Under the pieces are notes generated by a model, which worked only from the letters and a program-made list of their open reading frames with translations, had not been told where the DNA came from and did no database searches. A program made the translations under genes and the position numbers. This document shows, in pieces, positions 28,422 through 43,231 of a stretch of DNA of 64,000 nucleotides. Each line of letters opens with the position of its first letter. The first letter of the stretch is position 1. Source of the DNA: Halorientalis sp. IM1011 (GTDB taxonomy: Archaea > Halobacteriota > Halobacteria > Halobacteriales > Haloarculaceae); assembly GCF_001989615.1 (NCBI RefSeq), contig NZ_CP019067.1, positions 186,001-250,000 of the forward strand. Reading direction: 5' to 3'.

Positions 28422-28506
28422 GTCGTGGTAGCCAAGTCTGGCCCAAGGCGCAGGGTTGCTAACTCTGTGGCGTCAAGCCTCCGGGGTTCGAATCCCCGCC
28501 ACGACG
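28422..28506 (+). tRNA. tRNA-Ser (anticodon GCT)
   Basis: A class II tRNA without intron or encoded CCA. The acceptor stem GTCGTGG (28422-28428) pairs with CCACGAC (28499-28505), and the discriminator is G. The D stem is GCC/GGC. The anticodon stem CAGGG/CTCTG (one G-U) has loop TTGCTAA, giving anticodon GCT, which reads AGC and AGU serine codons. The long variable arm (TGGCGTCAAGCC) and T-arm CGGGG-TTCGAAT-CCCCG are intact. It directly precedes the S13 gene, and co-transcription is likely. Confidence 0.95.
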
Positions 28507-28526
28507 CTCACCGACAACGGTTACAC

Positions 28527-30911: not shown

Positions 30912-30996
30912 GCAGGGATAGCCAAGTCAGGCCAACGGCGCAGCGTTCAGGGCGCTGTCCCGTAGGGGTCCGCAGGTTCAAATCCTGCTCCCTGCA
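30912..30996 (+). tRNA. tRNA-Leu (anticodon CAG)
   Basis: A class II tRNA without intron or encoded CCA. The acceptor stem GCAGGGA (30912-30918) pairs with TCCCTGC (30989-30995), and the discriminator is A. The anticodon stem CAGCG/CGCTG has loop TTCAGGG, giving anticodon CAG for CUG codons. The variable arm (TCCCGTAGGGGTCC region) and T-arm GCAGG-TTCAAAT-CCTGC are intact. It sits between rpoD and rpl18e, its usual haloarchaeal location. Confidence 0.95.
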
Positions 30997-39735: not shown

Positions 39736-40545
39736 ATGACAGGGTTCGATCCGACGCCGCCGAGTACGGAGCTGTTCGCCGACGACCTGCTGGCGGGTGA
39801 GACGGCGTTGATCACCGGCGGCGGGACGGGAATCGGCGAGGAGATCGCGCTGGCGATGGCAGACCACGGCGCGGACGTGGCCGTCGCCAGCCGTGACATG
39901 GATCACCTCGAACCGGTGGCCGATGCGATCGAGGAGAAGGGTCAGCAGGCCTGTGCGACGACGGTCGACGTGCGCGACGAGGACGAGGTCGACGCGATGA
40001 CCGAGACGGTGATCGACGAACTCGGCGATATTACGATCCTCGTCAACAACGCCGGCGCGAACTTCGTCACGCCCACGGAGGAGCTGTCGGCCAACGGCTG
40101 GCGCTCCGTGGTGGGAACCATCCTCGACGGCACGGCCTATTGCTCGTTTGCGGTCGGCGAGCACATGATCGACAACGGCGGCGGGTCGATCGTCACGATG
40201 GGCGCGACCAACTCCGTGTTCGGCGCGCCGTATCACGCCCACTCGGGGGCGGGCAAGGCGGGCGTCCACAACCTGATGCAGTCGCTTGCCAGCGAGTGGG
40301 CGAAGTTCGGGATCCGTGCGAACACGGTCGCACCGGGCATCATCGAGACCGAGGGGATCGCCGGCGCGGTCGGTGGATCCCTGCCCGACCAGTTGCTGGA
40401 GGACCTCGCTGCGGATCGGTTCGGCGAGCCCGCGGACTGCGTGCCGGTCGTCCTCTTTCTCGCGAGCCCCGCGGCGAGTTACGTGACGGGGAGTTACTAC
40501 GCGGTCGACGGCGGGCACCTGCTCCATCAGTCGCCGATGGGGTGA
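39736..40545 (+). CDS. SDR family oxidoreductase, 2,4-dienoyl-CoA reductase-like
   Basis: 269 residues of the short-chain dehydrogenase/reductase fold. The cofactor loop is ALITGGGTGIGEEIALAMA, and VNNAGANFV follows strand four. The usual catalytic YxxxK is replaced: in PYHAHSGAGKAGV the residue four before Lys is Ser, as in 2,4-dienoyl-CoA reductases (DECR), which use a different acid. SRD after strand two favours NADPH. A role in unsaturated fatty-acid oxidation fits its divergent neighbour, an acyl-CoA dehydrogenase. The alternative is a generic 3-oxoacyl reductase. ATG 39736 opens the frame after an AT-rich gap. Confidence 0.85.
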   Translation: MTGFDPTPPSTELFADDLLAGETALITGGGTGIGEEIALAMADHGADVAVASRDMDHLEPVADAIEEKGQQACATTVDVRDEDEVDAMTETVIDELGDITILVNNAGANFVTPTEELSANGWRSVVGTILDGTAYCSFAVGEHMIDNGGGSIVTMGATNSVFGAPYHAHSGAGKAGVHNLMQSLASEWAKFGIRANTVAPGIIETEGIAGAVGGSLPDQLLEDLAADRFGEPADCVPVVLFLASPAASYVTGSYYAVDGGHLLHQSPMG

Positions 40546-40570: not shown

Positions 40571-40841
40571 CAGTTTTAAAAGCGGGCGTCGAAGGCCTCC
40601 GTAACCGAGCGCACGGCCGCCCGGACTCGGACGCGGCGGCCGGCAACACATCGAGCGGTTCGGTGTGTCCGGAACGGGACGACTCCCGTCCGTCGTTGCG
40701 CGTCGTGGGCCCTCGGTCGGCCCGGCGACGCACGGAATCCGACGGCGGGTCGGGAGTCGCTAGCCCACGGACCAGAATCGCCTGTTTGCCGGTCACCGCG
40801 AGTCGACCGACTCCGCGGGGCCCGTCTCGGAAGCTACAACC
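40571..40841 (+). ncRNA. Long structured 5' leader of RNase J mRNA (or independent small RNA)
   Basis: CAGTTTTAAAAGC at 40571-40583 is a strong TATA-like box that predicts a transcript start near 40600, about 240 bases before the RNase J ATG, very long for this lineage. The leader holds a hairpin at 40700-40731 (GCGTCG, T bulge, GGGCC, loop CTCGGTC, GGCCC, GG bulge, CGACGC) and one at 40796-40818 (CCGC GAGTC GACC GACTC, C bulge, GCGG). ACACA (near 40645) can pair with TGTGT (near 40665). No open frame of coding character, SRP Alu or RNase P core motif was recognised. Confidence 0.55.
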
Positions 40842-42191
40842 ATGGAAATCGAAATCGCGACAATCGGCGGCTATCAGGAAGTCGGACGGCAGATGACTGC
40901 GGTGCGAGCGGGCGACGACGTCGTCGTCTTCGACATGGGTCTGAACCTCTCGAAGGTCCTGATCCACGACAACGTCGAAACCGAGCGGATGCACAGTCTC
41001 GACCTGATCGACATGGGCGCGATCCCGGACGACCGGGTCATGTCCGATCTGGAGGGTGACGTGAAGGCCATCGTGCCGACCCACGGCCACCTCGACCACA
41101 TCGGTGCCATCTCGAAGCTGGCTCACCGCTACGACGCGCCCATCGTGGCCTCGCCGTTCACCATCGAACTCGTCAAACAGCAGATCAAGGGCGAGGAGAA
41201 GTTCGGCGTCGAGAACGACCTCCAGAAGATGGAGGCCGGCGAGACGATGCAGATCGGCGAGCGCAACGAACTGGAGTTCGTCAACGTCACCCACTCGATC
41301 ATCGACGCGATCAACCCCGTGCTCCACACGCCCGAGGGCTCCATCGTCTACGGGCTGGACAAGCGGATGGATCACACGCCGGTCATCGGCGACCCCATCG
41401 ACATGAAGCGGTTCCGGGAGATCGCCCGCGAGGACGGCGGCGTCCTCTGTTACATCGAGGACTGTACCAACGCCGGCCGGAAGGGCCGCACGCCCTCCGA
41501 GTCCGTCGCCCGTCGCCACCTCAAAGACGTGATGTACAGCGTCGAGGACTACGACGGCGGCATCGTCGCGACCACGTTCTCCTCCCACATCGCCCGTGTG
41601 AGTTCGCTGGTCGAGTTCGCCGAGGACATCGGCCGCCAGCCCGTCCTGCTCGGGCGCTCGATGGAGAAGTACTCCGGCACCGCCGAGCGACTCGACTTCG
41701 TGGACTTCCCGGACGACCTCGGGATGTACGGCCACCGCAAGTCCGTCGACCGGACCTTCAAGCGAATCATGAACGAGGGCAAGGAGAACTTCCTGCCCAT
41801 CGTCACGGGTCACCAGGGCGAGCCGCGCGCGATGCTCACCCGGATGGGGCGGGGCGAGACGCCGTACGAACTGGAGAACGGCGACAAGGTCATCTTCTCG
41901 GCCCGAGTCATTCCGGAGCCGACGAACGAGGGCCAGCGCTACCAGAGCGAACGCCTGCTGGGCATGCAGGGTGCGCGTATCTACGACGATATCCACGTCT
42001 CGGGTCACCTCCGGCAGGAGGGCCACTACGAGATGCTGGACACGCTCCAGCCCCAGCACGTCATCCCGGCTCACCAGGACATGGAAGGGTTCGCACCGTA
42101 CGTGGACCTCGCGGAGAACATGGGGTACAACCTCGGGCGTGACCTGCACGTCACGCGCAACGGGAACCTGATCACGCTCGTCGACGAATGA
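40842..42191 (+). CDS. rnj: Ribonuclease J, archaeal type
   Basis: 449 residues of the beta-CASP metallo-beta-lactamase family. It begins [20 protein letters not shown]. The zinc motif is [11 protein letters not shown], and later [24 protein letters not shown] and [13 protein letters not shown] with IPAHQDM complete the beta-CASP site. Archaeal RNase J is mainly a 5'-3' exoribonuclease in RNA turnover and processing. Its stop overlaps the prenyl synthase ATG (ATGA). The adjacency of rnj to isoprenoid genes and gltX is conserved in many haloarchaea. Confidence 0.95.
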
Positions 42192-43231
42192 CGACCCCAC
42201 GCGCCGACCGGGCGGCCGTCGAGGAGGCTATCGCCACGCGTCGCGAACTGGTCAACGACGCGATCCCCGAGCAACTCCCGATCATTCGCCCCGAGCGCCT
42301 CTACGAGGCGTCCCGGTACCTGCTGGACGCGGGCGGCAAGCGCCTGCGCCCGACGATCCTCCTCCTGGCCGCGGAGGCCATCGCCGACGCCGACCCGCTC
42401 GGCGAGGACTACCACGCCTTCCCCGCCCCGGACGGCCCCGTCGACGTGATGTCGGCGGCGGTCAGCATCGAGATCATCCAGTCGTTCACCCTCATCCACG
42501 ACGACATCATGGACGACGACGATATGCGTCGTGGCGTGCCAGCCGTCCACCGCGAGTACGACCTCGAAACCGCGATCCTCGCGGGCGACACGCTCTACTC
42601 GAAGGCCTTCGAGGTCATGCTGGAGACCGGCGCTCCGGCCGAGCGGTCGGTCAGGGCCCTGTCGGAACTGGCGACGACCTGTACGAAGATCTGTGAGGGA
42701 CAGGCCTTCGACATCGACTTCGAGTCCCGCAGCGCCGTCGAACCCGACGAGTATCTGGACATGGTGGAACTCAAGACCGCGGTGCTGTACGCCGCGGCCG
42801 CGGGGGTCCCCGCCATGCTGCTGGGCGACGACGACGCGGTCGACGCGCTCTACGGCTACGGCCTCGACATCGGTCGGGCCTTCCAGATCCAGGACGATCT
42901 GCTCGACCTGACGACGCCCAGTGAGAAACTCGGCAAGCAACGCGGGAGCGACCTGATCGAAGGCAAGAAGACGCTGGTGACGCTGCACGCCCGCGAACAC
43001 GGCGTCGACGTGGACGGACTGGTCGACGCGGACTCGGTGGAGGCGGTCGACGAGGCCGAGATCGAGGCCGCAGTCGGCGAGTTGCGCGAAGCGGGTAGCA
43101 TCGAGTACGCCCGCGAGACCGCCCACGACCTCATCCACAGCGGCAAATCCAACCTGGAAGTCCTCCCGGACAACCACAGCCGGGACCTGCTGGGCGGCAT
43201 CGCCGACTACCTGATCGAGCGAGAGTACTGA
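42188..43231 (+). CDS. idsA: Polyprenyl synthetase (geranylgeranyl/farnesyl diphosphate synthase)
   Basis: 347 residues. It makes the C20 (or C15/C25) prenyl chain for archaeal membrane lipids. The first Asp-rich motif is [15 protein letters not shown] and the second [38 protein letters not shown] binds isopentenyl diphosphate. The residues before the first Asp motif ([11 protein letters not shown]) lack bulky Phe/Tyr pairs at -5, which favours a C20 product, but this is inference. It is coupled to RNase J. Confidence 0.94.

Follow-up and report, generated by a model that had tools for sequence, protein, structure and literature searches.

The RNase J gene rnj of Halorientalis sp. IM1011 is preceded by a long structured leader RNA, and we are highly confident that this leader exists and acts in cis. 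An earlier note on the same DNA (the window, a stretch of 64,000 nt) had proposed such a leader from the sequence, and the proposal is borne out by conservation across the class Halobacteria, a fixed spacing from the promoter, compensatory changes and occurrence at rnj only. The note had made conservation and compensatory change among relatives the test of its idea; that test was run here, and the leader passed it.

Upstream of rnj, 296 non-coding bases separate the gene from one for an SDR-family dehydrogenase (39736-40545), and no other gene was called between the rnj TATA box and the ATG at 40842. The locus is made up as follows.

40574-40581, forward strand: TATA box TTTTAAAA of the rnj promoter, assigned from the sequence
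40601-40841, forward strand: structured 5' leader RNA of rnj, 241 nt, with a predicted start (conservation; fold z -3.5)
40842-42191, forward strand: rnj, an RNase J family beta-CASP ribonuclease of 449 aa (TIGR00649; Pfam RNase_J_b_CASP)
42188-43231, forward strand: geranylfarnesyl diphosphate synthase gene (NF040789, 634 bits)

The rnj protein scores 422.6 bits against TIGR00649, for which the cut-off is 400. Since the start of the geranylfarnesyl diphosphate synthase gene overlaps the rnj stop codon (42188-42191), this enzyme of lipid-chain synthesis is probably co-expressed with RNase J under the same leader. The window also carries ordinary tRNA genes, tRNA-Ser(GCT) at 28422-28507 and tRNA-Leu(CAG) at 30912-30996. 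The TATA box sits within CAGTTTTAAAAGC, 27 nt from the predicted RNA start at 40601. The earlier note had recognised this box correctly but placed it about 240 bases before rnj, when the distance to the ATG is about 264 nt.

The leader was found at rnj in all eight genomes of the genus, including that of the window, and those of the seven other genomes are 74-89% identical to it over the matched stretch. Among named loci, those nearest to the rnj of the window are likewise from Halorientalis. BLAST recovered it in 70 of 146 genomes of the family, and every fetched family match that contained the conserved 5' core adjoins rnj on the upstream side. The SDR gene lies beside the leader in Halorientalis only, the upstream neighbour varying elsewhere while the leader stays constant; thus, the leader follows rnj and not the gene upstream of it. 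We then extended the comparison to the whole class, retrieving about 190 distinct rnj loci together with the sequence upstream. In nearly all of them a TATA box is present and, after it, a leader some 125-270 nt long, and a leader of this kind precedes rnj in all crown haloarchaeal families sampled.

These leaders fall into two types. Type A, found in Haloarculaceae and relatives, has the 5' consensus GTAACCGAGCgnACGGYCGYC...GRCGRCCGGC and the 3' consensus ...CTCGGag..ACAACY-ATG. Type B, found in Natrialbaceae, Haloferacaceae and others, is laid out as CCCGCGGGNAAGTGCG...GCGGG followed by CGACGNGCTGYAAGACGCCGGGG and, close to the start codon, by a TTTCAGTG-like element that is repeated. At the predicted start, both types show N(T/C)ANC in similar form, a shared motif that suggests they may have a common origin. 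One locus, L046 (genome G183, family f3, genus g42), has a type A leader among f3 members that are otherwise type B where sampled, which suggests gene transfer or a deep split within f3.

No such leader was found at rnj in the deepest lineages sampled (families f5 and f11; loci L070, L071 and L072). Their rnj is about 67% identical and directly follows a gene that resembles, as identified by eye, type 2 isopentenyl diphosphate isomerase. Because rnj there directly follows another gene and the leader is absent, the origin of the leader seems to coincide with the acquisition by rnj of its own promoter. Divergent copies of rnj (second copies in three genomes, L243-L245, together with L068) carry different leaders, the ends of which are again complementary (CCGA/TCGG or CCAA/TTGG).

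The position of the promoter is equally constant. In 59 of 61 type A leaders scored, the first T of the TATA box lies 27-28 nt from the conserved leader start, a fixed spacing that matches expectation for a promoter and from which we take the conserved block to begin at the transcription start. From this predicted start to the ATG, the type A leaders scored extend over 129-249 nt. A leaderless layout, in which about 25-30 nt separate the TATA box from the start codon, was not found at rnj.

Pattern searches tied the leader still more closely to this one gene. The exact type B core (a 20-mer) occurs in 123 of 292 genomes of the class, in a single copy except in two genomes, and in 30 of 30 fetched loci the start of rnj lies downstream; the reversed pattern, searched as a control, gave zero matches in the class genomes. 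Of 116 genomes of the family, 66 contain the type A motif, in a single copy except in one. The three extra motif matches lie inside coding sequence and are attributed to chance; the same holds for all secondary BLAST and pattern matches considered as second genomic copies (L009-L013, L204, L217 and L218).

These searches bear on a suggestion in the earlier note, that the region might instead give rise to a separate stable small RNA, which would act in trans. The promoter of its own and the high fold stability would suit such an RNA, and haloarchaeal communities do express conserved intergenic sRNAs that are unassigned (PMC7002113). However, the leader is never found away from rnj, its conservation extends to the start codon, T-runs of at least four, of the kind that could serve as a terminator, are rare (3 of 68 leaders of type A, 5 of 54 of type B), and the divergent rnj copies have their own leader. 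We therefore regard a separate small RNA as very improbable. Among the intergenic RNAs described, the 209-nt STRG.136887.1 of Halobellus limi (PMC7002113) has a length that suits an rnj leader.

Could the conserved block be protein-coding? A 77-aa frame opening with GTG crosses the region, and a conserved small protein encoded there (a uORF) would be one way to account for the conservation. The leader of the window, however, has no ATG, and ATG is depleted in type A leaders as a whole (51 observed against 104 expected); gaps that separate close relatives do not come in multiples of three, and the compensatory changes track RNA pairing. On the gap lengths and the ATG depletion, coding was ruled out as the cause of the conserved block, and a uORF of any kind is scarcely credible.

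The leader does not correspond to a catalogued RNA. Rfam gave no gathering-level match for the leader in the window and none at E<=1 for the leaders of 14 relatives; relaxing the threshold to E<=10 gave weak, non-specific matches, the best being EBER2 on the opposite strand at 18.3 bits against a cut-off of 200. It looks like a new RNA family absent from Rfam. In the open-access literature searched, outside which most subscription papers lie, there was no report of an archaeal RNase J leader, and the passages obtained from papers mentioning HVO_2724 and from a ribosome-profiling study are silent on a leader of HVO_2724.

We used folding, shuffled controls and comparison among relatives to examine the structure of the leader. 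As a whole, the leader of the window folds better than 200 of 200 dinucleotide shuffles (z -3.5). Its elements, in order, are these.

40605-40609, forward strand: 5' strand of helix P1, CCGAG, pairing with 40826-40830
40613-40624, forward strand: segment a, ACGGCCGCCCGG, with b (local) or a' (long-range) as partner
40635-40647, forward strand: segment b, GGCGGCCGGCAAC, with a (local) or b' (long-range) as partner
40647-40667, forward strand: hairpin CACATCGA/TCGRTGTG, invariant in the genus except for a G-U/A-U exchange
40700-40731, forward strand: central hairpin, the first stem-loop of the earlier note (shuffles; compensatory changes)
40784-40794, forward strand: segment b', GTTTGCCGGTC, partner of b (folding and comparison)
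40796-40818, forward strand: 3' hairpin, the second stem-loop of the earlier note, seen when a:b is forced; in the rod, a:a' takes its place
40812-40822, forward strand: segment a', TCCGCGGGGCC, long-range partner of a (partner-swap z -5.5; shuffling control)
40826-40830, forward strand: 3' strand of P1, CTCGG, 11 nt before the ATG

Both stem-loops of the earlier note exist as predicted structures, but it had overlooked the 5' hairpin formed by a and b (40613-40645, -22 kcal/mol), which is the strongest and best conserved local element, and the pairing of 40605-40609 with 40826-40830. Its argument that the paired arms were too long for chance held narrowly for one stem-loop and failed for the other. 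The central hairpin has 12 bp with one bulge (-21.3 kcal/mol), and 3.5% of shuffles give an equal or better 32-nt hairpin (p=0.035). In six Halorientalis, 91% of its cells are paired, compared with 30-61% when the hairpin is slid, and two of its pairs show compensatory changes, which with n=6 is weak evidence taken alone. The 3' hairpin, with 9 bp, one bulge and -12.7 kcal/mol, is equalled in 62% of shuffles (p=0.62); taken alone it is at chance level for a GC-rich stretch, yet it forms part of the alternative fold. RNAalifold, run on genus and family alignments, recovered a long rod and missed the central hairpin, because the middle of the leader aligns badly.

For the pairing of the two ends of the leader, we collected 84 distinct leaders solely by the presence of a 5' CCGAG, suitably spaced from a TATA-like box. 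All 84 contain CTCGG in their last 35 nt, whereas among 336 control windows 14 do. Because P1 does not vary within type A, covariation there is uninformative on it; its predicted pairing probability is 0.90. In relatives the 3' strand of P1 overlaps a Shine-Dalgarno-like GGAG(G), and in several the helix contains or abuts GGAGG, which is the haloarchaeal Shine-Dalgarno core (PMC8241225).

For the a:b helix, covariation is informative. Using a home-made version of the R-scape approach on 68 type A leaders, the best a:b pair reached E<0.01 against a null model preserving the tree and ranked top of all column pairs, being C-G in 40 leaders, T-A in 25 and T-G in 2. Two more pairs of the helix rank fifth and ninth and are singly non-significant, and in an earlier run on 53 sequences the same a:b pair was non-significant (best E 0.3). 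Another way to view the pairings is to compare the duplex strength of each leader's own partners with that of partners swapped between species. This gave z values of -7.3 for a with b, -5.5 for a with a' and -4.1 for b with the 3' end, all inflated by kinship, which the comparison ignores.

In type A, segments a and b each have two partners, the local pairing and the long-range ones being mutually exclusive, and the predictions indicate which of them prevails. All the foldings that follow are equilibrium predictions with standard parameters and not measurements at haloarchaeal salt. In the native sequence of 59 leaders, the mean pairing probability of a is 0.88 with the 3' end and 0.03 with b; when the 60 nt before CTCGG were shuffled, these values became 0.16 and 0.73. 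Because shuffling the 3' region restores the local hairpin, that region appears, on the folding model, to have been selected to draw a away from b. Folding of successively longer prefixes gave, in most of eight leaders, an a:b probability of about 1 until 20-30 nt before the ATG, after which it is lost. When a:b was forced, the resulting fold was weaker by 1.6-17 kcal/mol in the eight leaders, and by 3.2 kcal/mol in the window. P1 is present in both predicted folds.

Another role would be that of a constitutive shield, with P1 and the rod protecting the rnj mRNA against 5'-3' decay by RNase J and regulating nothing. P1 fits this, as it leaves only 4 nucleotides free before the helix that contains the 5' end. 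For such a purpose, however, a simple stem would be enough, and the conserved partners of a:b and a:a' would be superfluous, making a pure shield distinctly unlikely.

Type B gave less. Tested against the tree-based null, covariation yielded no significant pair (best E about 3-10); several top-ranked pairs fit helices, namely an inner stem and a core hairpin, and the mean fold z against shuffles is -2.3. The 5'-3' closing helix showed no clear excess, at 0.19 compared with 0.16 in the control, and since pairing of the ends is thus close to control, we confine the two-state model to type A. Competing leader structures of the kind looked for in a riboswitch were found, by folding and comparison, in type A alone. 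In Natrialbaceae, both copies of the TTTCAGTG-like repeat (for example in L103 and L111) can pair with the same 5' GAAA, which might possibly constitute another switch.

How might such a leader work? We infer that rnj, and probably idsA too, is controlled after transcription. In the proposed sequence of events, the local hairpin a:b would form while the leader is being transcribed, and once the last 20-30 nt have been made, a and b would switch to a' and b' as partners, giving a long rod that P1 closes. The rod would bury both the 5' end and the bases adjoining the start codon, so that the balance of the two folds could set the translation or the decay, or both, of the rnj (and idsA) mRNA. RNase J, or its nuclease complex, would then bind or cut the leader, giving negative feedback and a steady level of an essential RNase. 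The earlier note had raised such feedback by analogy, and we find it plausible: RNase J is the likeliest signal because the leader is tied to rnj alone, because RNase E has such a loop, its 5' UTR mediating autoregulation in E. coli (PMC10989929), and because Haloferax requires RNase J as an essential enzyme (PMC10470531). An mRNA whose 5' end is sealed in P1 should be resistant to RNase J attacking in the 5'-3' direction; the feedback would therefore need endonucleolytic cutting or binding. Taken as a whole, the combination of cis leader, fold switch and RNase J feedback is a tentative explanation, to which we give a little short of an even chance.

The competing folds would equally suit a leader that senses a small molecule, an ion or temperature and controls rnj with RNase J uninvolved. 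The nearly invariant core of type B, CGACGNGCTGYAAGACGCCG, in which UGYAA may resemble a T-loop, would speak for such a sensor. Most riboswitch classes, however, control several genes of one pathway, and this core is attached to a single gene family; type A lacks this invariant core, and the gene context offers no candidate ligand. Synthetic riboswitches do function in Haloferax and respond to salt (PMC8241225), and on balance we consider a sensor of this kind unlikely.

The feedback explanation can also be extended to the class as a whole, with the leader serving as an archaeal RNA switch through which RNase J would monitor its own level and in which the timing of folding, or cleavage, sets the output. 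By the first route, the co-transcriptional hairpin would commit the mRNA to translation and slow refolding to the rod would set the output; by the second, RNase J would cut near the start codon and leave a leaderless mRNA. This extension is doubtful. We know of no RNase in archaea that autoregulates through a structured leader, and if the extension is true the switch would be the first.

Leaderless transcripts make up 72% of the protein-coding ones in Haloferax volcanii, where just 97 leaders are longer than 150 nt and structured leaders were considered untypical (PMC4983044). A leader before an essential RNase in almost all haloarchaea contradicts that picture for one central gene. Haloarchaea have no RNA exosome (PMC10470531) and therefore depend on other nucleases such as RNase J. 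The rnj leader thus offers a defined, testable RNA for the study of archaeal post-transcriptional control.

Among known systems, the enterobacterial rne 5' UTR is likewise an unusually long, conserved and structured 5' UTR before a key RNase gene (PMC10989929). It belongs, however, to another enzyme family and another domain of life, with no sequence or Rfam match to the rnj leader, in which the 5' end pairs beside the start codon, two folds compete and feedback is only proposed. The haloarchaeal S15 ribosomal leader motif is also a conserved structured leader of Halobacteria found by comparison, but the gene it precedes is the unrelated rpsO (with recJ and rps3ae), and its presumed binding partner is S15 (PMC7247131). 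In its architecture the rnj leader resembles bacterial translational riboswitches and attenuators (1:2/3:4 versus 1:4/2:3), having four segments with exclusive pairings and the ribosome-binding region within one helix; it differs in being archaeal, in having neither homology to them nor a known ligand, and in that P1 fits both folds. We conclude that while structured leaders of RNase genes are already known in bacteria, the rnj leader, unusual among archaea whose transcripts are mostly leaderless, constitutes a new conserved family of cis-regulatory leaders.
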